64,000 bases of DNA, from NCBI RefSeq assembly GCF_000427425.1, contig NZ_KE386495.1, forward strand, positions 326,554 to 390,553, given 5' to 3'. The notes under the pieces were generated by a model. That model worked only from the letters and a program-made list of their open reading frames with translations. It did not search any database and was not told the DNA's origin. Made by a program: the position numbers and the translations under genes. Every line of letters starts with the position of its first letter. Position 1 is the stretch's first letter. This DNA is from Caldanaerobius polysaccharolyticus DSM 13641. Lineage in GTDB: Bacteria > Bacillota > Thermoanaerobacteria > Thermoanaerobacterales > Caldanaerobiaceae. This document shows positions 1 through 7,461 of this stretch, in pieces.

Positions 1-908
1 TGCCGGTCTCAACTATATCTTCAACAATTTCTTTGAGTGTTTCTAATTTCGCCTTTGAAACTTGTTTTTGTATTCCATCATCTGTGTTGACATAGCCTCC
101 GGTTATTTGCTGTAATCTCAGAAGTCTTGTTAACACATTTCTAACTGTGATCTCGCCATTTTCAAGCTCTGTATAGCTATCCTTCTTGATTTCTTCATAG
201 ATGCGCTTTGCTTTTGGCTCTAATTCACAGTATCTAAATTCATCTACTTGCTCCGGCAGATCCAATGCTTCTTCTTTTGTTACTCTGAATGCTATTGAGT
301 GTGCTTTTTGTATGAGTTCATCCAAGCGGTTATATCCTATTACCTGATGTCCTCCGTAACCGCCCATAATGGCATATCTTGCTCTAAATGCGTAATAGCT
401 TGTCCCAAATATCGAGTCGTCGAGGAATTTGTACTGCGAGAAAAAGTCCAAAGGCGTGTTTTGGACCGGGGTACCCGAAAGGATGAGTTTGTATTTTGCA
501 ACCTTCCCTAGCTTGTGCATTGCTTTTGATTGCTGGGCAGTTGGATTTTTGATGCGTTGGCTTTCATCTGCGATGACCATATCTGGCTTCCAAGCGAGAA
601 GTGCATCTATCATGCGCCATGTAGCCTCATAGTTTATTACTGCAATCCAGAGGCCCTCAGATTTAAAACTGTCGAGTATTTCTATGCGTTTTTCAATGGG
701 TCCCTCAAGCACTTTGATTTCATATGGTATCGCCGCCGCTTCAAATTCTTTGGGCCACACTGGACAAACTGAGGTAGGTGCGACGATAAGAAGTTTTTTA
801 ACCTTATTATTTAAATATGCTCTTGCTGCTACTGCTACGGCTATAAGTGATTTGCTCAACCGCAGCCCATTTCGGCAAGGATTGCACATCCGCCGCCGTT
901 ACGAGCTG
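1..908 (-). pseudogene. SNF2/DEAD-like helicase, C-terminal part (interrupted, frameshifted, runs off window)
   Basis: Translating the minus strand from about 908 down to 1 gives a continuous SNF2-family helicase: the Walker A region (AEMGCG), then KSLIAVAVA in another frame, motif II (IADESQRIKN) and motif III (LSGTPVQN). The first motif is broken by a TGA at 856-858. The reading frame after it is shifted by two, as if five bases were added between the glycine and lysine of Walker A. The N-terminal part is at 1510-1863, and an HNH endonuclease gene sits between the two. Such helicases act in phage DNA replication modules. As written, neither half can make an active ATPase. A sequencing error could explain the shift but not the HNH insertion. 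Confidence 0.75.
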
Positions 909-1520
909 TCATATTACATCACCAGCCTTTCGTTTTTCCCATGGTTTGTCATGCTCAGCATGCCATTTTGCATGTGCCGCTTGATTAGGGAAAATCATTA
1001 AATTTTCGAGCCTATTATCTAATTTATTACCATTGATATGATGGACTACTTCTTCTGGTAATAGCTTTCTCCCTAGCTTCTTTTCTGCTGCTACTCTGTG
1101 TTCGTGTCTGCCAAAATATTTTCTATAAGTTTTACCTTGACCAGTGCCTAAAAGAACATCCCTTTTTACTTTCCGTTTTTCGTATGTCCATCCTTCACTT
1201 CTGTTCATAGGATTATATTTCCTGTTATATTCAGTTAAATGAGGTGCTTTGTGTCCTTTGCTATGTCCTTTAACGTTTATATTTTCCTTGGTCCATTGTC
1301 CAAACCATTTTAAGCAATGCTCCTTGCAGCAGAAATTACGTTCTCTTTTTTGGCTTGGAGTAACCTCAATTTCTTTGTTGCACCAAGCACAGGTTGTTTT
1401 TATCCTTTTTTTCATAAATAAATTGTGATGTTCTTTACAACAAAAATGGTTTTTGCTGTTTTTGATTCGTGAGGGAGTTTTGTTAATTTCCTCCCCACAG
1501 TATGAACATTTAACAATCAT
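909..1520 (-). CDS. HNH homing endonuclease inserted in helicase gene
   Basis: The 203-residue protein has two N-terminal zinc-finger-like units (CSYC...CC and CAWC...CC, residues 5-65). An HNH nuclease fold follows near the C-terminus, with EHRVAAEKKLGRKL, HHINGNKLDN and RLENL as signatures. HNH proteins of this type nick or cut DNA and spread selfishly in phage genomes. It overlaps the end of the helicase N-terminal frame by 11 bases, and helicase coding resumes right after its stop. The insertion is therefore almost only the ORF, with no space for a conventional group I intron. Inferred role: a free-standing homing endonuclease that has split its host gene. A homing function is not proven by sequence. 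Confidence 0.8.
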   Translation of the reverse strand: MIVKCSYCGEEINKTPSRIKNSKNHFCCKEHHNLFMKKRIKTTCAWCNKEIEVTPSQKRERNFCCKEHCLKWFGQWTKENINVKGHSKGHKAPHLTEYNRKYNPMNRSEGWTYEKRKVKRDVLLGTGQGKTYRKYFGRHEHRVAAEKKLGRKLLPEEVVHHINGNKLDNRLENLMIFPNQAAHAKWHAEHDKPWEKRKAGDVI

Positions 1521-1863
1521 CGTTAAACACCCCTAAAATTAACCCTGCTAAGTTATAAGCTTTGATTTGGTGCTGAAAGGGTTTGAGTTTAATAGGCATT
1601 GGCTCAATAGGCTTAACTTCTTCTGCGAATTTTATATTTGTTGTTTTTTCTCGCAGTCGTTTTAATTCCTCGTATTTATTTTTGATGCTAATATCGACGT
1701 TCCCCGGAATATATTTGAGATGGTCTATTGCTTCGAGTGTTGCTGGCAATATCCAGACTTTTTTCTTAGGATCCCATCGCCTACCCGGAATGGCTTTAAT
1801 TGCTTCCTTGACATCAAAACAATTTACAACTTCTATGTGGTCATTAACGAGCATAGCCTTCAT
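1510..1863 (-). pseudogene. SNF2-type helicase, N-terminal fragment
   Basis: The 117 residues end with KLKPFQHQIKAYNLA, the conserved Q-motif-like lead-in to the Walker A of phage SNF2 helicases, followed by LILGVFNDDC and a stop. The matching Walker A continuation lies about 600 bases downstream, beyond the HNH gene. The N-terminal 60 residues carry a RRWDPKKKVW element, common in phage and plasmid helicases with a HARP-like front domain. Uninterrupted relatives are several hundred residues long, so this piece alone should not unwind DNA. Confidence 0.7.
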
Positions 1864-1878
1864 TCTCTCACCCTCATG

Positions 1879-2181
1879 CTATGCTATACTCTTTTTCTTT
1901 GCGTAATCATTCGCCAATGATGTAAGATATTCACGCAACTTTATGATTTCAGCATCAATACGTTGCGCCTCGTGTAACTTCTTTTCGTATATCTTCTTTG
2001 CCTCCTCAACTTCATGCCATGCCACTTTTTGTTCTATTTGAAGGTTAAATATCTCTTGGAGCGCTGACGCCATTTCAAACTCGATGTTTTCTCTTGATAA
2101 AACCTCTGTTGTTGTTATCAGTGAATCAACATACCTTTTGAATCCTTGCATGTCGCCCTTGAATTCTGCTATCTTGAACAT
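1879..2181 (-). CDS. Hypothetical coiled-coil phage protein, 100 aa
   Basis: The start at 2181 is chosen because AGGAAAGGGG lies about nine bases upstream. An upstream in-frame extension to 2289 lacks such a site and covers the preceding gene. The second half (from about residue 50) is rich in heptad-spaced Leu, Ile, Ala, Glu and Lys, so a coiled coil is likely. It follows two tiny genes in the same direction and precedes the helicase, so it is probably co-transcribed in the replication module. The family was not recognised. Confidence 0.6.
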   Translation of the reverse strand: MFKIAEFKGDMQGFKRYVDSLITTTEVLSRENIEFEMASALQEIFNLQIEQKVAWHEVEEAKKIYEKKLHEAQRIDAEIIKLREYLTSLANDYAKKKSIA

Positions 2182-2348
2182 TCTTTTGTTCCCCTTTCCT
2201 TTAACAAATCGCCTATACAAACCCACAAATGATTCTCTTTGTCGTATATTTCCTTTGCCTTCTTTACGTATTGTAGGAACAAATCCCAATCACCATTGAA
2301 ATACCGGATAATACTTCTGAAGCAATATGCCTGCACCTGTGGACTCAT
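2169..2348 (-). CDS. Hypothetical small protein, 59 aa
   Basis: The ATG at 2348 follows a strong AAGGAGG eight bases away, and the frame stays open for 59 codons. The protein begins MSPQVQAYCFRSIIRYF and is basic, with aromatic residues spread throughout. Its start codon overlaps the previous stop as ATGA, and its end overlaps the next gene by 13 bases. This is the compact packing usual in phage early operons. No family was recognised. The good ribosome-binding site and the tight packing are the only support. Confidence 0.6.
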   Translation of the reverse strand: MSPQVQAYCFRSIIRYFNGDWDLFLQYVKKAKEIYDKENHLWVCIGDLLKERGTKECSR

Positions 2349-2500
2349 ATCACTTTTGCCTCCTTCAGCTTTTTATACAGAAACTCCGCAATCGGGCGAT
2401 AATATTCGTCTTCATCTACTTCCGACACATCTACTACTTCTTCCTCCAGCTTTTCCCCTGTTTCTCTATCAAACGTTACCTTCACTGTTGCCACCCGCAT
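2345..2500 (-). CDS. Hypothetical acidic small protein, 51 aa
   Basis: The frame starts MRVATVKVTFDRETGEKL, has an acidic middle (EEEVVDVSEVDEDEYY) and ends with a basic helix. AAAGGGGG precedes the ATG. It appears to be the first gene of a minus-strand operon leading to the helicase. Its start region (2501-2540) faces the promoter of the plus-strand gene at 2593, so the two leaders are divergent. Function unknown. Confidence 0.55.
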   Translation of the reverse strand: MRVATVKVTFDRETGEKLEEEVVDVSEVDEDEYYRPIAEFLYKKLKEAKVI

Positions 2501-2538
2501 TTGTAAGGCCCCCTTTCTATTGTCCTTACCTACCGTTC

Positions 2539-2581
2539 TTGTTTTTCCCCTCTCTCCAAGTGGTAAAATATTCTTGGAGAG
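2539..2581 (+). promoter_or_regulatory. Promoter and 9-bp inverted repeat, module 1
   Basis: An extended -10 (TGGTAAAAT, 2561-2569) lies 19 bases after a TTGTTT element (2539-2544). The -10 is bracketed by a perfect inverted repeat, CTCTCCAAG (2552-2560) and CTTGGAGAG (2573-2581), which looks like an operator. The same TGGTAAAATnTTCTT leader recurs at 3047-3060 before the next plus-strand gene. Confidence 0.5.
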
Positions 2582-2592
2582 GAGGTGATATT

Positions 2593-2865
2593 GTGGATCT
2601 AACCGAATACTGCGAACTTAAACACATATGTCCGCCTGATCATACCAATGATTCTATAAATATCACCATTAATGAAGTAAATAAGCTTTTAGAAAATGGA
2701 TGGGTACTTATAGAAACATTTAAAACCTGTTATGATGAGAAATTTACCAATATACAAAAAGTACATTTCATACTTGGATATCCTACCCAGCGAAGAGCTT
2801 TAGAAAAAATATCGGGCGAATCTTATGATGAACTTATGAAAGAAGCATTGTCTGATTTTAAATGA
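2593..2865 (+). CDS. Small unknown protein with GWxLI...FILG core, 90 aa (module 1)
   Basis: The GTG start at 2593 is chosen for the GGAGG seven bases upstream. Upstream codons in this frame have no such signal. The core reads NEVNKLLENGWVLIETF and later VHFILGYPT, a helix-strand-strand pattern seen in many small phage and plasmid proteins of unknown role (DUF1737-like). Its 3' end overlaps the end of an opposing gene (2823-2996) by 43 bases. That opposing protein shows a similar pattern (EDWILLLAI...NFILGH). No function can be assigned. Confidence 0.6.
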   Translation: MDLTEYCELKHICPPDHTNDSINITINEVNKLLENGWVLIETFKTCYDEKFTNIQKVHFILGYPTQRRALEKISGESYDELMKEALSDFK

Positions 2866-2996
2866 CCTAGAATAAAATTTGTACCATCGGGGCTGGGTAT
2901 TGCTAGCAACAGTATCCAGTCCTCTTTTATAAATGTGTTTAATTCGTCGATGTCTTGTACTAGCTTTACTTTGTCAACTTTCTCTATAAGCCTCAT
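2823..2996 (-). CDS. Small unknown protein, convergent partner of 2593-2865, 57 aa
   Basis: The ATG at 2996 follows a GGAGGCGAGA leader. The frame holds MRLIEKVDKVKLVQDIDEL, then FIKEDWILLLAI and NFILGHLK. Its hydrophobic pattern resembles that of the 90-residue protein on the other strand, although the reading frames are not antisense copies of each other at the matching segment. The leader (AATCCGCAT then AGGAGG-like) is similar to the leader of the 38-residue gene at 3411-3527. Convergent overlap means the two transcripts would be antisense at their 3' ends. Function unknown. Confidence 0.55.
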   Translation of the reverse strand: MRLIEKVDKVKLVQDIDELNTFIKEDWILLLAIPSPDGTNFILGHLKSDNASFISSS

Positions 2997-3003
2997 TCTT
3001 CCA

Positions 3004-3025
3004 TCTCGCCTCCTTCATGCGGATT
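3004..3025. repeat. Module boundary repeat, copy 1
   Basis: TCTCGCCTCCTTCATGCGGATT here matches TCTCACCTCCTATGCGGATT at 3531-3550, apart from one substitution and a two-base gap. Each copy marks the outer end of a convergent gene pair and holds the ribosome-binding site of the minus-strand member. Confidence 0.55.
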
Positions 3026-3026
3026 C

Positions 3027-3055
3027 TTGGTTTCTTCCCTCATACATGGTAAAAT
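3027..3055 (+). promoter_or_regulatory. Promoter, module 2
   Basis: TTGGTT (3027-3032) and an extended -10, TGGTAAAAT (3047-3055; TAAAAT from 3050), are 17 bases apart. The segment is recognisably related to the module 1 promoter (2539-2569), including the CCCTC in the spacer and the TTCTT after the -10. Confidence 0.55.
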
Positions 3056-3078
3056 CTTCTTAAAAGGAGGTAGTGATA

Positions 3079-3414
3079 ATGCTTGACAAAAACTCTAAAA
3101 GAATTTTGAATATGCTTAACCATGTAGCAGACAAATACGGGATAGTGGATGACCACAAACTAATTTCTAACAACATGCCTAAAGGTTATAATCAAATTAA
3201 ATTAATATCTACTCTCGAATGCTTAAAAGATTTAGGCTACCTAGATTTTAGCTATAATATCGAACAAGAAGTTACTTTCTTAAAATTACTTCATAAAGGA
3301 TTAAATTACAGAAATATCGAATGGATTGAAATTAAAACATTTATCATTAGAAGTATCATTGTCCCTATAATTGTATCTTTGTCTACTACTTTGCTTGTTG
3401 AGTGGTTATTTTAA
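3079..3414 (+). CDS. Putative winged-helix protein with C-terminal membrane helix, 111 aa (module 2)
   Basis: The start at 3079 is set by AGGAGG eight bases upstream. A GTG at 3073 is too close to that site. Residues 5-75 look like a small winged helix (helices around ILNMLNHVADKYG and LISTLECLKDLGYLDF, then a strand pair and HKGLNY). Residues 88-111 form one hydrophobic helix with PIIVSLSTTLL, ending WLF. The helix resembles that of the opposing 38-residue gene (APIVVSIITTLI), whose stop codon overlaps this one. Possibly a membrane-tethered regulator or immunity-like protein. The role is unknown. Confidence 0.6.
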   Translation: MLDKNSKRILNMLNHVADKYGIVDDHKLISNNMPKGYNQIKLISTLECLKDLGYLDFSYNIEQEVTFLKLLHKGLNYRNIEWIEIKTFIIRSIIVPIIVSLSTTLLVEWLF

Positions 3415-3527
3415 AATCTCCCAAGCAACTTAAGCATTATTAGGGTGGTTATTATACTAACTACTATAGGCGCTATATAATCACTCAATATTTTTTTATC
3501 TATCTTTCTGATATCCTTATCCTTCAT
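3411..3527 (-). CDS. Tiny single-span membrane protein, possibly Fst-like, 38 aa
   Basis: The ATG at 3527 follows GGAGG eight bases away and 38 codons are open. The N-terminal half is charged (MKDKDIRKIDKK). Residues 18-34 form a hydrophobic helix with YIAPIVVSIITTL. Known Fst/TxpA-type type I toxins are 30-40 residue single-span peptides with a similar IAPIxVG core, so the likeness is suggestive only. No antisense RNA was identified. It lies 13 bases downstream of the repressor gene 3540-3791 and is probably co-transcribed with it. Its stop overlaps that of the convergent 3079-3414 gene. Confidence 0.5.
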   Translation of the reverse strand: MKDKDIRKIDKKILSDYIAPIVVSIITTLIMLKLLGRF

Positions 3528-3530
3528 CTT

Positions 3531-3550
3531 TCTCACCTCCTATGCGGATT
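3531..3550. repeat. Module boundary repeat, copy 2
   Basis: TCTCACCTCCTATGCGGATT matches 3004-3025. Here it covers the stop region of the repressor gene and the ribosome-binding site of the 38-residue gene. Confidence 0.55.
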
Positions 3551-3791
3551 GTTCAGATTGCTTTTCATTGTGACTATTTGACACATCGATAGGTAAAAAA
3601 ATATCTTCGATGCTTTTATTTAACACAGCTGCAATTTTAGCAGCCAATTCTAAAGAAGGATTTCTTTTGCCAAGCTCAATATTTACATAAGAAGCTCTAT
3701 GAATACCAACAATCTGTGCCAATTCTTTTGGAGTTAACCCTGCTTGTATTCTTGCTTCTTTTAATTTTTTTCTTAAAGTATACTGTCTCAT
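3540..3791 (-). CDS. XRE-family HTH regulator, 83 aa (Cro/repressor-like)
   Basis: This is a compact helix-turn-helix protein: residues 5-60 contain LKEARIQAGLTPKELAQIVGI and the recognition-helix region HRASYVNIELGKR. The tail is short and polar. Its promoter (3829-3857) is a perfect consensus with an operator inside the spacer, so it probably responds to itself or to the divergent regulator at 3955. It is likely one arm of the element's decision switch. Which of the two regulators keeps the element silent cannot be told from sequence. Confidence 0.85.
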   Translation of the reverse strand: MRQYTLRKKLKEARIQAGLTPKELAQIVGIHRASYVNIELGKRNPSLELAAKIAAVLNKSIEDIFLPIDVSNSHNEKQSEQSA

Positions 3792-3828
3792 ATTTTTACA
3801 CCTCTCTTGCGCCGTTCTGACACTTATA

Positions 3829-3857
3829 ATTATAATGCGTCATTTCGACGCTGTCAA
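3829..3857 (-). promoter_or_regulatory. Consensus sigma-A promoter for the small XRE gene with embedded operator
   Basis: On the minus strand TTGACA (3852-3857) and TATAAT (3829-3834) are exactly 17 bases apart. The spacer is almost filled by the inverted repeat GCGTCATTTCGACGC (3837-3851), so a repressor bound there would block polymerase. Confidence 0.85.
3837..3851. promoter_or_regulatory. Operator O1 of the element switch
   Basis: GCGTC and GACGC are inverted halves around five bases. The site agrees with O2 (3887-3901) at 12 of 15 positions. Confidence 0.65.
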
Positions 3858-3886
3858 GTATTTTTTTATAAAATTTTTACTTATAT

Positions 3887-3901
3887 GAGTCATATCGTCG
3901 C
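3887..3901. promoter_or_regulatory. Operator O2 of the element switch
   Basis: GAGTCATATCGTCGC is an imperfect copy of O1. It lies in the middle of the divergent intergenic region. Confidence 0.55.
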
Positions 3902-3906
3902 TAATG

Positions 3907-3922
3907 TTGCGTATTGACGCAA
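3907..3922. promoter_or_regulatory. Operator O3 of the element switch
   Basis: TTGCGT and ACGCAA form a perfect inverted repeat around four bases, 32 bases before the start codon at 3955. It shares the GCGT/ACGC half-site with O1 but has tighter spacing. It likely controls the rightward regulator-ImmA-integrase transcript. Confidence 0.6.
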
Positions 3923-3954
3923 TATTGGTTATTATATTCATGGAGGTGTTTCTT

Positions 3955-4350
3955 ATGGACACATTAGGAAAAAGAATAAAAGAATTAAGAACAGAACTTG
4001 GTTTGACTCAAGAAGAACTAGCAAAAAAAATAGGCGTTACGAGAGCCGCTTTATCATCTTGGGAAATAAATAGAAGAGATCCCGATACTACAACTTTACA
4101 AAAATTATCTGAAATATTTAATGTAAGCGTTGATTACATTCTCGGAAAAACTGATATACGTACCAGGGCTGATGAAATTACAGATGCAGTCAAAGACGAT
4201 CCAGAACTTTTGGCATTTTGGAATGAACTCAAAGAGCGCCCAGACCTTCAATTACTTTTTAAGCAAACCAGAAAGTTATCTCCAAAGACCATAAGGCAAG
4301 TAATTCGCATAATTAAAGCCATAGAGGACGAAGAATCCGCAACTATGTAA
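3955..4350 (+). CDS. XRE-family repressor, CI/ImmR-like, 131 aa
   Basis: The start at 3955 (MDTLGKRIKELR) follows GGAGGTG. The HTH domain (residues 5-60) contains LGLTQEELAKKIGVTRAALSSWE and ends VDYILGKTD, the typical XRE-to-linker junction. Residues 65-131 form a helical C-terminal domain that probably dimerises. It lies 17 bases before an ImmA-like protease gene, the pairing known from ICEBs1 ImmR-ImmA. There the protease cleaves the repressor to induce the element. By analogy this is the repressor that the neighbouring protease inactivates. Confidence 0.85.
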   Translation: MDTLGKRIKELRTELGLTQEELAKKIGVTRAALSSWEINRRDPDTTTLQKLSEIFNVSVDYILGKTDIRTRADEITDAVKDDPELLAFWNELKERPDLQLLFKQTRKLSPKTIRQVIRIIKAIEDEESATM

Positions 4351-4367
4351 AAAGGGGGAACTTCGAT

Positions 4368-4718
4368 ATGGCTATTGAAATTTTAGACAAGCCTCTTATG
4401 CAAGCATTGATGAATGAAGATATACCTTTCCATGAATTGATGGCGGCATATGATATACGGGTATCTATCGCAAATTTAGATACAGATGTTTACGGTTTTA
4501 CATATGTTAGCAGATTCGGGAATTACCATTTAATCTTAAACGGCAACATTGGATACAAGACACAATGTAAGGTATTTATCCACGAACTGAAGCACATACT
4601 GAACGATATCCCCAAGCAAAGCTACTACATAGGTTTAGATATGCAATACGAATACATAGAAATGGAAGCAGATAAAGTTGCAGAGGAAATTATAAATATT
4701 GTGTATAAGACCGTTTAA
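4368..4718 (+). CDS. ImmA/IrrE-family metallopeptidase
   Basis: The 116-residue protein carries the zinc-protease motif HELKH (residues 72-76) and a downstream EADKVAEE segment that should supply the third metal ligand. The length matches phage and ICE anti-repressor proteases. GGGGG precedes the start. It is likely co-expressed with the upstream repressor and degrades it on induction. The substrate is inferred from gene order only. Confidence 0.85.
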   Translation: MAIEILDKPLMQALMNEDIPFHELMAAYDIRVSIANLDTDVYGFTYVSRFGNYHLILNGNIGYKTQCKVFIHELKHILNDIPKQSYYIGLDMQYEYIEMEADKVAEEIINIVYKTV

Positions 4719-4745
4719 ATTAAACCACTTAGGGAGGGTAGGGTA

Positions 4746-6248
4746 ATGAAAGCAGTGGCATATTGTAGATATTCGAGTGACAATCAAAGAGAAGAAAGTA
4801 TTGAAGCACAAATTCGTGCTATTAAGGAATATGCTGATAGGAATAATATAGAAATCATAAAAATATACGCAGATGAAGCAAAAACAGCAACCACAGACGA
4901 CAGACCGCAATTTTTACAAATGGTCAAGGATAGCGAATTGGGTTTATTCCAAGCTGTTATTGTACATAAATTGGACCGCTTTGCTCGTAACCGATATGAT
5001 AGCGCATTTTATAAACGCCAACTTAAAAAGAATGGCGTAAAGCTCATATCTGTGCTTGAACCGCTTGACGATTCGCCAGAATCTATTATACTCGAGTCAG
5101 TTCTCGAAGGCATGGCTGAATACTACTCAAAAAACCTTGCAAGGGAGGTTATGAAAGGTTTGAAGGAAAATGCATATAAAGCACGATTTAATGGAGGTAT
5201 CCCTCCTTTAGGATACGATATAAAAGACGGCCATTACGTTATTAATGAAAAGGAAGCCGAAGCCGTCAGGCTTATATTTCAAATGTATAGAGATGATTAT
5301 GGTTATCGGCATATCATAGATGAGTTGAATTTGCGTGGCTACAAAACCAAAAAAGGCGGGAATTTTTCAAAAAATACCTTAAATGCTATACTCAAGAACC
5401 AAAAGTATATTGGCACCTATATATTTAACAAGGGTACAAAAAATAATCATAACATAACCAAAGACGATGTAATCATCATCGAAAATGCGATCCCGGCTAT
5501 AATAGACAAAAAAACTTTTGAGGAGGTGCAACAAAAAATGAAAAACACTAAAAAGACACAAGGGACTCACAACGCAAAAACTGTGTATTTACTGACTGGC
5601 TTGGTATATTGCGGCGAATGCGGTGCTGCTATGACTGGAAATCTGGGAAGGTCTAAATATAGATACTATCGTTGTAATGTCAAAGACCGGTCTAAACAGT
5701 GCAGTAATAAAGACATAAGTAAGGATAAACTGGAAGCATACATATTAGATCAGCTACAAAAAAAGATATTCAATGATGACGTGTTGCCTGTACTGGCAAA
5801 GAAGCTGAATAATGAGAACAAAAATATTGTGGCTGAAAGAGAGGATGAACGCAAAATACTTGCCAGAAGGTATGAAGAAATTATAAAAAGCATTAACGCT
5901 ATAGTGGATACTATTGCAGCTGGCCATTTTCATCCAAGCCTTGACGCAAAATTGACCGAACTTGAAAATCAAAAAAGCGAAATTGAAATAAGAATAAAAG
6001 AACTTGATATGAAACCAGATATAAGCATAATAACGGAAGAAATGATAAGAGAGTACCTGAACAAGGATAAAGGGGTGTTCGTAGCGGGTGACCTCCGAAA
6101 AATAAAACAGATTTTGTCTACATACATAAATAAAATAACGGTCTTTAAAGACCGTGTTGAAGCCAAATTTAAAATTGCAGTAGATAATACAGTTTGTGAA
6201 TGGTCAATAGCGGCGAGTGGAGTCGAACCACCGACACTGCGGGTATGA
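4746..6248 (+). CDS. Large serine recombinase (element integrase)
   Basis: The 500-residue protein has a resolvase catalytic domain (residues 1-135: nucleophile region YCRYSS with Ser10 or Ser11, arginines in KLDRFARNR at 75-83). A recombinase domain follows (about 150-265), then a zinc ribbon (Cys 289, 292, 310, 319) and a coiled coil (about 345-410) of the kind that controls directionality. It catalyses integration and excision between att sites. The last 12 or so codons (AASGVEPPTLRV) are the antisense reading of the tRNA-Met 3' half, so its natural C-terminus is set by the integration site. It forms an operon with the repressor and protease genes. Confidence 0.95.
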   Translation: MKAVAYCRYSSDNQREESIEAQIRAIKEYADRNNIEIIKIYADEAKTATTDDRPQFLQMVKDSELGLFQAVIVHKLDRFARNRYDSAFYKRQLKKNGVKLISVLEPLDDSPESIILESVLEGMAEYYSKNLAREVMKGLKENAYKARFNGGIPPLGYDIKDGHYVINEKEAEAVRLIFQMYRDDYGYRHIIDELNLRGYKTKKGGNFSKNTLNAILKNQKYIGTYIFNKGTKNNHNITKDDVIIIENAIPAIIDKKTFEEVQQKMKNTKKTQGTHNAKTVYLLTGLVYCGECGAAMTGNLGRSKYRYYRCNVKDRSKQCSNKDISKDKLEAYILDQLQKKIFNDDVLPVLAKKLNNENKNIVAEREDERKILARRYEEIIKSINAIVDTIAAGHFHPSLDAKLTELENQKSEIEIRIKELDMKPDISIITEEMIREYLNKDKGVFVAGDLRKIKQILSTYINKITVFKDRVEAKFKIAVDNTVCEWSIAASGVEPPTLRV

Positions 6249-6250
6249 AC
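6208..6250. other. Probable attachment-site junction in tRNA-Met 3' half
   Basis: The recombinase coding sequence runs through this segment and stops at 6248, inside the tRNA gene. The tRNA acceptor stem ends in a G1-U72 wobble. This could mean that the 3' strand came with the element. The exact core cannot be set without the other end or an empty site. Confidence 0.5.
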
Positions 6251-6281
6251 CGCATGCTCTAGCCAGCTGAGCTACGCCGCC
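6208..6281 (-). tRNA. tRNA-Met (CAT), elongator
   Basis: A cloverleaf folds on the minus strand: acceptor GGCGGCG with CGCCGCU, D arm TAGCTCAGCTGGC, anticodon loop TTCATAC, T arm GGTGG-TTCGACT-CCACC. CCA is not encoded. The 1-72 pair is G-U. It is the first of three tRNA genes and overlaps the end of the recombinase gene on the other strand. Confidence 0.9.
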
Positions 6282-6307
6282 TTGTTCTTTAATTATTCCT
6301 CTTTTAA

Positions 6308-6381
<74 letters not shown>

Positions 6382-6398
6382 GTGTTTTATCTCCTTCA

Positions 6399-6486
6399 TG
6401 CCGGAGACCGGAATCGAACCGGTACGAGTCTTTTAGGACCCGCAGGATTTTAAGTCCTGTGCGTCTGCCAGTTCCGCCACTCCGGC
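6399..6486 (-). tRNA. tRNA-Leu (TAA)
   Basis: This is a class II tRNA with a long variable arm. The acceptor is GCCGGAG with CTCCGGC, the anticodon loop CTTAAAA, and the T arm ACCGG-TTCGATT-CCGGT. The discriminator is A. Confidence 0.92.
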
Positions 6487-6531
6487 AAACCTCAACGACG
6501 ATATATATTATATATCCTTCTACATACTTTG

Positions 6532-7461
6532 TCAAGACATATTTTCAACTATTAGACCTTCTAGGTTATCCCATTCGCTAACTATAAGCTGGCTCAATCC
6601 CAACAGCTCCATCACTTTGAATAGTATTGCAGTACCTGCCACGATTATATCTGCCCTCTTAGCATATAACCCCTTTATATGCCTTCTCTCTTCTTCCTTC
6701 ATCTTCAACAGCAAATCGAGTATACTACATACTTTATCATATGTCAAGGTATAACCGTGAATTTTCTGGGGATCATAAACCTCCAGTTTCTGGTCTACTG
6801 CTGCCAGTGACGTCACAGTGCCACCTACTCCTACAGCCATAACTCCTTTGACGTCAATCAATTCTTTTAAAGACGACGACAGAGGGCAAAGGTTGGACTC
6901 GATGTCTTGAAATAAATCTTTTACGTCTTCTCTTTTCGCAGCGGAAACCACGCCATATCGCTCAGTCAACCTTACAGCCCCTATATTGACGCTGTGCCTG
7001 TATTTTATCTGTCCGCTTTTTCCCCAGGTAAACTCCGTGCTACCGCCGCCAATATCAACAATCAAAAGGGATACTCCGGCTTTTTCTACTTTTACGCCAG
7101 CTTGCACTCCTTTATAAGCCAGCTCAGCTTCCCTTTCTCCTGATATCACCTCAACTTCAATACCTGCTTTGTCCCACATTTCCTGAAATAGCACATCTCT
7201 ATTTGCTGCGTCCCTTACAGCACTGGTTGCTATAGCTATTATTTTATCGCAACCATAAGACATGGCTATTTTTTTAAAATCCACCACAGCATCAACAGTC
7301 CTGCGTATGGCATCTATATTTAAGGTACCGGTGTGATCCACACCAGTACCCAATCTCGTCGTATTTATGCCTTTATATATCCTAATCAATCCGTTTTTGC
7401 CATTATCTGCTATTAGCAGCCTCACAGAATTGGTCCCTATATCAATACAACCAAACCTCAT
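6532..7461 (-). CDS. ppx: Exopolyphosphatase / pppGpp phosphohydrolase family (Ppx/GppA)
   Basis: The 309-residue protein has the ASKHA fold. Phosphate motif 1 is IDIGTNSVRLLI at the N-terminus, phosphate motif 2 is DIGGGSTEF near residue 135, and VISGEREAELAY lies between them. Family members remove terminal phosphate from polyphosphate or pppGpp. At about 310 residues it is the short, two-domain form without the HD-like C-terminal domain. GAGGTGG precedes the start. It is the last gene of the leftward cluster that begins near mazG. Polyphosphatase and GppA activities cannot be separated by sequence. Confidence 0.88.
   Translation of the reverse strand: MRFGCIDIGTNSVRLLIADNGKNGLIRIYKGINTTRLGTGVDHTGTLNIDAIRRTVDAVVDFKKIAMSYGCDKIIAIATSAVRDAANRDVLFQEMWDKAGIEVEVISGEREAELAYKGVQAGVKVEKAGVSLLIVDIGGGSTEFTWGKSGQIKYRHSVNIGAVRLTERYGVVSAAKREDVKDLFQDIESNLCPLSSSLKELIDVKGVMAVGVGGTVTSLAAVDQKLEVYDPQKIHGYTLTYDKVCSILDLLLKMKEEERRHIKGLYAKRADIIVAGTAILFKVMELLGLSQLIVSEWDNLEGLIVENMS

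Follow-up and report, generated by a model that had tools for sequence, protein, structure and literature searches.

What two pairs of small genes behind near-identical leaders are doing directly downstream from the cro gene of a prophage is the question raised by a segment near the start of the window, the 64,000-nt stretch of Caldanaerobius polysaccharolyticus DSM 13641 DNA that was analyzed (contig NZ_KE386495.1, positions 326,554 to 390,553). An earlier note, made from the letters alone, had described two tandem modules, each a plus-strand gene facing a minus-strand gene, and had proposed an interchangeable type of cassette that perhaps carries toxin-immunity or superinfection genes. Its four frames and both of its leader types were recovered to the base (Table 1).

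The first 6.25 kb of the window form the right end of a prophage, whose serine recombinase gene adjoins three tRNA genes. The plus strand of this prophage carries the CI-like, ImmA/IrrE-like, and recombinase genes, and the minus strand carries the cro-like gene and early genes. The two-module segment sits within the minus-strand early operon, immediately downstream from cro, and the GC content of its modules is 0.35 and 0.31, compared with 0.32-0.40 in the surroundings. We consider it fairly likely that this locus serves temperate phages of the Clostridia type as a slot for accessory genes, located just after cro and holding two tandem cassettes, each of them a pair of genes that would be oppositely expressed. 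Farther along the same prophage, a gene for an SNF2-type helicase (window 1-1863, minus strand) is interrupted, close to the ATP-binding part, by a frame for an HNH endonuclease (909-1520, minus strand). The homolog in a second prophage of this genome (L004 4448-6118) is intact and has no HNH insertion, and an Rfam search of window 500-6700 matched no intron family.

Table 1. Genes and signals of the two modules and of the adjoining prophage region, in window coordinates
Feature	Position	Strand	Details
Module 1 plus leader	2542..2588	+	TTGTTT-like -35; extended -10 TGGTAAAAT at 2561-2569; SD GAGGAGGTGA; 56 bits
Gene A	2593..2865	+	90 aa; GTG start; motif GWVLI..HFILG; codon-use z 3.1
Gene B	2823..2996	-	57 aa; motif DWILL..NFILG; codon-use z 1.9
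Gene A intrinsic terminator (predicted), inside gene B	2889..2933	+	14-bp stem 2889-2923, then CTTTTATAAA; -19.9 kcal/mol
Relic of cro 3' end, without a cro gene	3015..3047	-	in frame MYEGRNQESA-stop; stop runs into gene B SD
Module 2 plus leader	3030..3072	+	TTGGTT -35; extended -10 TGGTAAAAT at 3047-3055; SD AAAGGAGG; 44.7 bits
Gene C	3079..3414	+	111 aa; winged-helix-like N part; C-terminal transmembrane helix; codon-use z 1.7
Gene D	3411..3527	-	38 aa; one transmembrane segment resembling that of gene C
Gene C intrinsic terminator (probable), inside gene D	3443..3496	+	hairpin 3443-3488, then TATTTTTT; -11.2 kcal/mol, weaker
Cro-like repressor gene, early lytic operon gene 1	3540..3791	-	HTH_3 6e-17
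Last codons of cro	3' end of 3540..3791	-	AATCCGCATAG, overlapping SD of gene D
Early lytic promoter (predicted)	3829..3857	-	TTGACA-17-TATAAT, 12/12; GCGTC..GACGC operator-like repeats alongside
CI-like repressor gene	3958..4350	+	lysogeny strand, shared with genes A and C
ImmA/IrrE-like gene	4368-4718	+	lysogeny strand
Serine recombinase gene	4746-6248	+	lysogeny strand

Evidence that the four frames are coding comes from PHROG families for genes C and D, and from codon use and mutual resemblance for genes A and B. Gene C matches phrog_12206 across almost its full length (E 8e-6), and gene D matches phrog_20650 (E 9e-8) as well as the C-terminal part of phrog_12206 (E 1.3e-4). A below-threshold match links gene B to Phage_gp38 (E 0.004). 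Gene A matched no Pfam, PHROG, or NCBIfam family, and its residues 27-73 weakly match PDC-M08A, a candidate defense family of PADLOC (E 1.2e-3, 17 bits). No homologs outside the window were recovered by tblastn searches of annotated phages with C and D (E up to 10), by scans of viral contigs for A and C, or by a phrog_12206 search of 398 genomes. The AlphaFold model of A has a mean pLDDT of 61 and gave no PDB match at E below 0.4, and that of C, with a mean pLDDT of 47, was too poor for use. Purifying selection, whose absence the earlier note would have held against its proposal, is evident for a cassette common to two other loci at moderate distance, L151 and L082 (dN 0.20 and dS 1.33 for one gene, 0.36 and 2.21 for the other; dN/dS about 0.15 and 0.16). 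The four genes of the window, for which we found no close homolog that would permit a dN/dS test, have coding-like codon use only.

The likeness that had been claimed between the two proteins of each pair is real though modest, with a BLASTP E of 0.005 for A and B and an E of 7e-4, in the transmembrane segment, for C and D. Resemblance within a pair was also seen at loci L057 and L155. As a general rule, within-pair homology was rejected, because it was found in 3/21 pairs across loci (permutation p 0.005). At L155 (201-783 relative to a hairpin match), a winged-helix gene whose product has a C-terminal membrane helix converges on a gene for a single-helix membrane protein, which is the layout of C and D, and BLASTP found no similarity between this winged-helix gene and gene C.

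The plus leaders contain TGGTAAAATATTCTT (2561-2575) and TGGTAAAATCTTCTT (3047-3061), with GGAGG after each, and the minus leaders contain AATCCGCAT (3025-3017 and 3550-3542), with GGAGG..GAGA after each copy. When the module 1 leader was aligned with 12 others, the extended -10 and the SD were conserved across leaders, and a -35-like TTGTTT was present in many. Only three copies of the plus leader TGGTAAAATnTTCTT..GGAGG exist in the 2.5-Mb genome, two of them here and one in the second prophage, whose leader is 89% identical over 66 bp (E 5e-18). The pattern TGGTAnAATnTTCTT likewise has three genome matches, all in this arrangement (a reversed-pattern control gave one), and the combined minus-leader pattern has exactly three, at the three plus-leader slots. 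An inverted repeat around the -10 was considered as an operator and is not claimed, its own arms barely beating swapped arms (p 0.05).

Control DNA had been said to be kept while the coding parts differ. This holds for the conservation of the leaders, but the minus leader is not a free-standing control element, being the 3' end of cro. The string AATCCGCAT-AGGAGG reads CAA TCC GCA TAG, or Q-S-A-stop, and the stop of cro overlaps the SD of the next gene. At most leader-type loci the minus gene is preceded by a cro-like tail, most often ending S/T-A-stop, and at one such locus an antirepressor-like gene takes the place of cro. Between the modules of the window, the tail persists as a relic, and a relic tail abutting the next plus leader also joins the two modules of viral contig L058. 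A different tail repeat, ACCGGTACTGATGGGTAG, occurs at several junctions of L141. These relic joints fit a gain of cassettes that would have occurred via recombination at gene-boundary sequences, and cassettes may have been exchanged by recombination at their common leaders. In L059 and L142, several early genes in succession (cro, the gene that follows it, and the antirepressor gene) all end Q-T-A-stop, as if the tails were repeated joints.

The idea of an interchangeable cassette type is well supported, since matching leaders flank differing pairs in the second prophage, in relatives, and in viral contigs. The second prophage (C3:172300) carries a 107-aa phrog_2211-like plus gene facing a 53-aa minus gene and then cro, and this cargo is unrelated to that of the window. 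Nonconservation of the leaders in relatives had been named as evidence that would count against the proposal, and they are conserved: among 60 relatives, the leader pattern yielded three further cases beside cro, each with a distinct pair, in order-level relatives (G003, G008, and G019). Viral contigs with the leader are L048, L055/L050 (with DUF2188), L058, and L059. A leader model that uses sequence only and was built from 13 leaders (R1) gave six matches of at least 44 bits among the 37 class genomes, each of them in this setting, and the next match scored 24 bits. In a phylum sample the model added G366, whose pair is that of L059 though it comes from a different collection, and G330 (L141), which has four convergent pairs in a row downstream from cro. 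Loci recovered by the leader pattern necessarily have the leader in common, but its exclusivity within the genome and the gap in scores are independent of that. Tandem slots thus number two in the window, two in L058, and four in L141, and L151 appears to have two.

A pattern scan of genome contigs gave mostly chance matches, the only similar arrangements being two Sutcliffiella loci, and a minus-leader scan of viral contigs gave chance matches in other gene contexts. At the Sutcliffiella loci (L019 and L033), a TGGTATAATTTTCTT leader precedes a small gene facing minus genes in Bacillus-type prophages, which suggests that the layout extends beyond Clostridia. Cargo with Pfam matches at the plus positions of comparable slots includes YjcQ (PF09639; L137/L147, E 5e-18) and DUF2188 (PF09954; L055, E 7e-29), families to which none of genes A-D belongs. 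Zinc ribbons and membrane-tailed winged-helix proteins (gene C; L155) are further cargo of such slots.

Joining is tail to tail in 21/21 pairs, the two genes either overlapping or adjoining at their 3' ends (-3 to +59 bp), with overlaps of 43 bp for A and B and 4 bp for C and D. Because of this, the terminator of the plus gene must fall inside the minus gene. In a codon test, the codons of each minus gene were shuffled among synonymous positions, for which the smallest possible p per cassette is 0.016. Over 21 cassettes, which are not fully independent because four come from L141 and two from L058, the real plus terminators were more stable than those of the synonymous shuffles (Fisher p 1.7e-7). 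The mirror control, which sought terminators for minus genes inside plus genes, was null (p 0.42). Module 1 alone gave a nonsignificant result (p 0.15), and the terminator is weak or missing in L058m1, L126, L141r3, and L141r4. As judged from these shuffles, the codon choice of minus genes strengthens the predicted plus terminators set-wide.

That codon choice maintains terminators in facing genes unrelated to one another is difficult to reconcile with plain early-region mosaicism, by which there would be no functional slot and the leaders would be alike through recent common ancestry only. The same is true of highly identical leaders whose facing coding sequences are unrelated, and of relic joints and tandem copies that recur in unrelated prophages. 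Phage early regions are indeed mosaic, and strong leader conservation is confined to Thermoanaerobacterales-type phages and some viral contigs, but on balance we regard mosaicism as an improbable account of the locus.

The commonest terminator hairpin reads, in protein, RVTALExRxPEQP (general form RVxxLExRxPEQP). A covariance model of this hairpin (R2) found matches in 15/398 genomes. About a dozen of the matches fall within small phage genes of the early region, most of which face a convergent small gene, and represent prophages of other Bacillota families. About four were chance or host sites; weak matches at L159 (in recR), L162/L165, and L164 were rejected as chance or host terminators. 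In an alignment of 14 matches fitted to the model, 94.7% of cells are paired and 24 both-side changes occur, a result that 0/500 shuffles equaled; the three seed sequences alone are 100% paired, with four compensating pairs. Because the R2 loci were found independently of the leader and mostly bear other leaders, the welded-pair layout is wider than the leader.

A second leader type, TTGTCGAAATGGTnGTTGTCCAG, was seen about 51-58 nt before the start of other convergent small genes (L154, L157, L158, L163, L141, and L173). A scan of 299 genomes for this pattern gave eight sites in seven genomes, at least two of them before convergent prophage genes. It includes TGTCGAA, which resembles a Spo0A box.

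How such a cassette might work can be proposed from its anatomy. Two small genes are fused tail to tail between two inward-facing conserved leaders. The plus gene (A or C), on the strand of cI, would form a self-contained unit with an extended -10 promoter, a strong SD, and a predicted intrinsic terminator. The minus gene (B or D) follows cro or a cro relic and is probably translationally coupled to that tail. In a repressed prophage the cro promoter would be off, and A and C would be read from promoters of their own, with transcription halting inside their partner genes. On induction, the predicted promoter at 3857-3829 would fire leftward into cro, D, and B, crossing C and A antisense. Because lytic transcription would cross the plus gene antisense, the members of a pair would belong to opposite phage states, A and C probably to lysogeny and B and D probably to the early lytic phase.

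By another reading, the plus transcripts would chiefly be antisense RNAs that stabilize lysogeny by acting against cro and the early operon, with proteins of little account. Their promoters aim at the minus genes and cro, and superinfection exclusion by the Salmonella prophage BTP1 is mediated by an antisense RNA (PMC7067206). We find such a role quite unlikely, because the plus unit would stop at the predicted terminator within the minus gene, short of cro, and because plus frames have retained strong SDs and codon use typical of coding sequence, with a dN/dS of about 0.15 where testable.

The suggestion of toxin-immunity genes found little favor. With the two partners predicted to be expressed in opposite phage states, an antitoxin would appear in the lytic state only, and no toxin, antitoxin, or defense family matched genes A-D above its curated cut-off. 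Moreover, similar slots hold such commonplace cargo as DUF2188 and YjcQ. Although the genes are small and paired, and those of module 2 encode small membrane proteins, as a toxin-antitoxin or toxin-immunity module might, we judge this explanation to be very unlikely.

A two-component unit is somewhat easier to entertain, though still unlikely. The lysogen would make the plus protein, and the early minus protein would neutralize it on induction, sparing the phage's own lytic growth. Welded genes are co-inherited, but welding by itself keeps pairs together without a functional link. Partner proteins are alike in A/B, C/D, L057, and L155, but similarity within pairs reaches just 3/21. Certain partners recur, as with the zinc ribbon and its VLxxxLxxxQA partner (L008, L058, and L141) or the YjzC-like protein and KHYITKY (L082 and L151), but the zinc-ribbon case amounts to three weakly similar partners (23-30% identity) from a common minus family.

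For the accessory-gene slot that we favor, our guess is that the plus genes serve lysogenic conversion, most likely by interfering with other phages. By analogy with morons and with mycobacteriophage variable regions, interference would be the likeliest role, with some support here from the weak match of gene A to PDC-M08A, and the earlier proposal of superinfection genes is plausible given the strand, the predicted independent promoter, and the fast turnover of these genes.

Morons and other prophage accessory loci comprise small, nonessential-looking genes that have their own promoter and terminator, lie antisense to lytic genes, and vary among related phages (PMC7067206; PMC3952083). Genes A and C resemble them in opposing the cro operon from the cI strand, in having predicted terminators of their own (Table 1), and in being cargo that is replaced in related phages. 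Unlike morons, each is welded at its 3' end to a probable early lytic gene in which its terminator lies, and they occupy a fixed slot after cro and come in tandem arrays with common leaders; they are predicted to be expressed in the lysogen.

The SAS/ESAS elements of cluster K mycobacteriophages similarly place a short conserved sequence at the translation starts of numerous genes unrelated to each other, in some cases just downstream from an inverted repeat. SAS, a 13-bp element interpreted as a translation signal, is present 11-19 times per genome and almost always in one orientation (PMC3203893). In contrast, the leader described here has one or two copies per prophage, includes a predicted promoter, and is oriented against the early operon, and its inverted repeat is weakly supported. 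A 13-bp repeat of the GGGATAGGAGCCC type at many gene starts was not found, the leader having three copies genome-wide and a different sequence.

In the central variable region of cluster N mycobacteriophages, and in the gene pairs of Sbash, CarolAnn, and Butters, fast-changing small genes expressed in lysogeny, some with a membrane partner, defend the lysogen against other phages (PMC6426596, PMC7542560). However, these genes lie between the lysis and immunity cassettes, those of a pair share one strand, and no homology to the window genes is known. We regard the locus as a variant of the moron kind, notable for its tail-to-tail fusion, its tandem slots, and terminators placed inside facing genes.

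It is tempting to go further and view the locus as an undescribed but widespread architecture of Bacillota phages, in which the terminator of a lysogeny gene is written in the facing early lytic gene, the welded pair moves together as an opposed switch, and the minus protein counteracts the plus protein on induction. We hold this broader view to be doubtful as a whole. If it were true, the RVxxLExRxPEQP motif would exist mainly as the DNA of another gene's terminator.

At the least, scattered annotations of hypothetical proteins near cro in Bacillota prophages become a recognizable slot. The leader and hairpin models R1 and R2 are search handles for systematically collecting accessory genes, some of which are possibly anti-phage. 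The locus is also an example of a predicted terminator and a protein specified on opposite strands of one DNA stretch, and it suggests why small phage proteins that are not related would repeatedly carry a coiled-coil motif.
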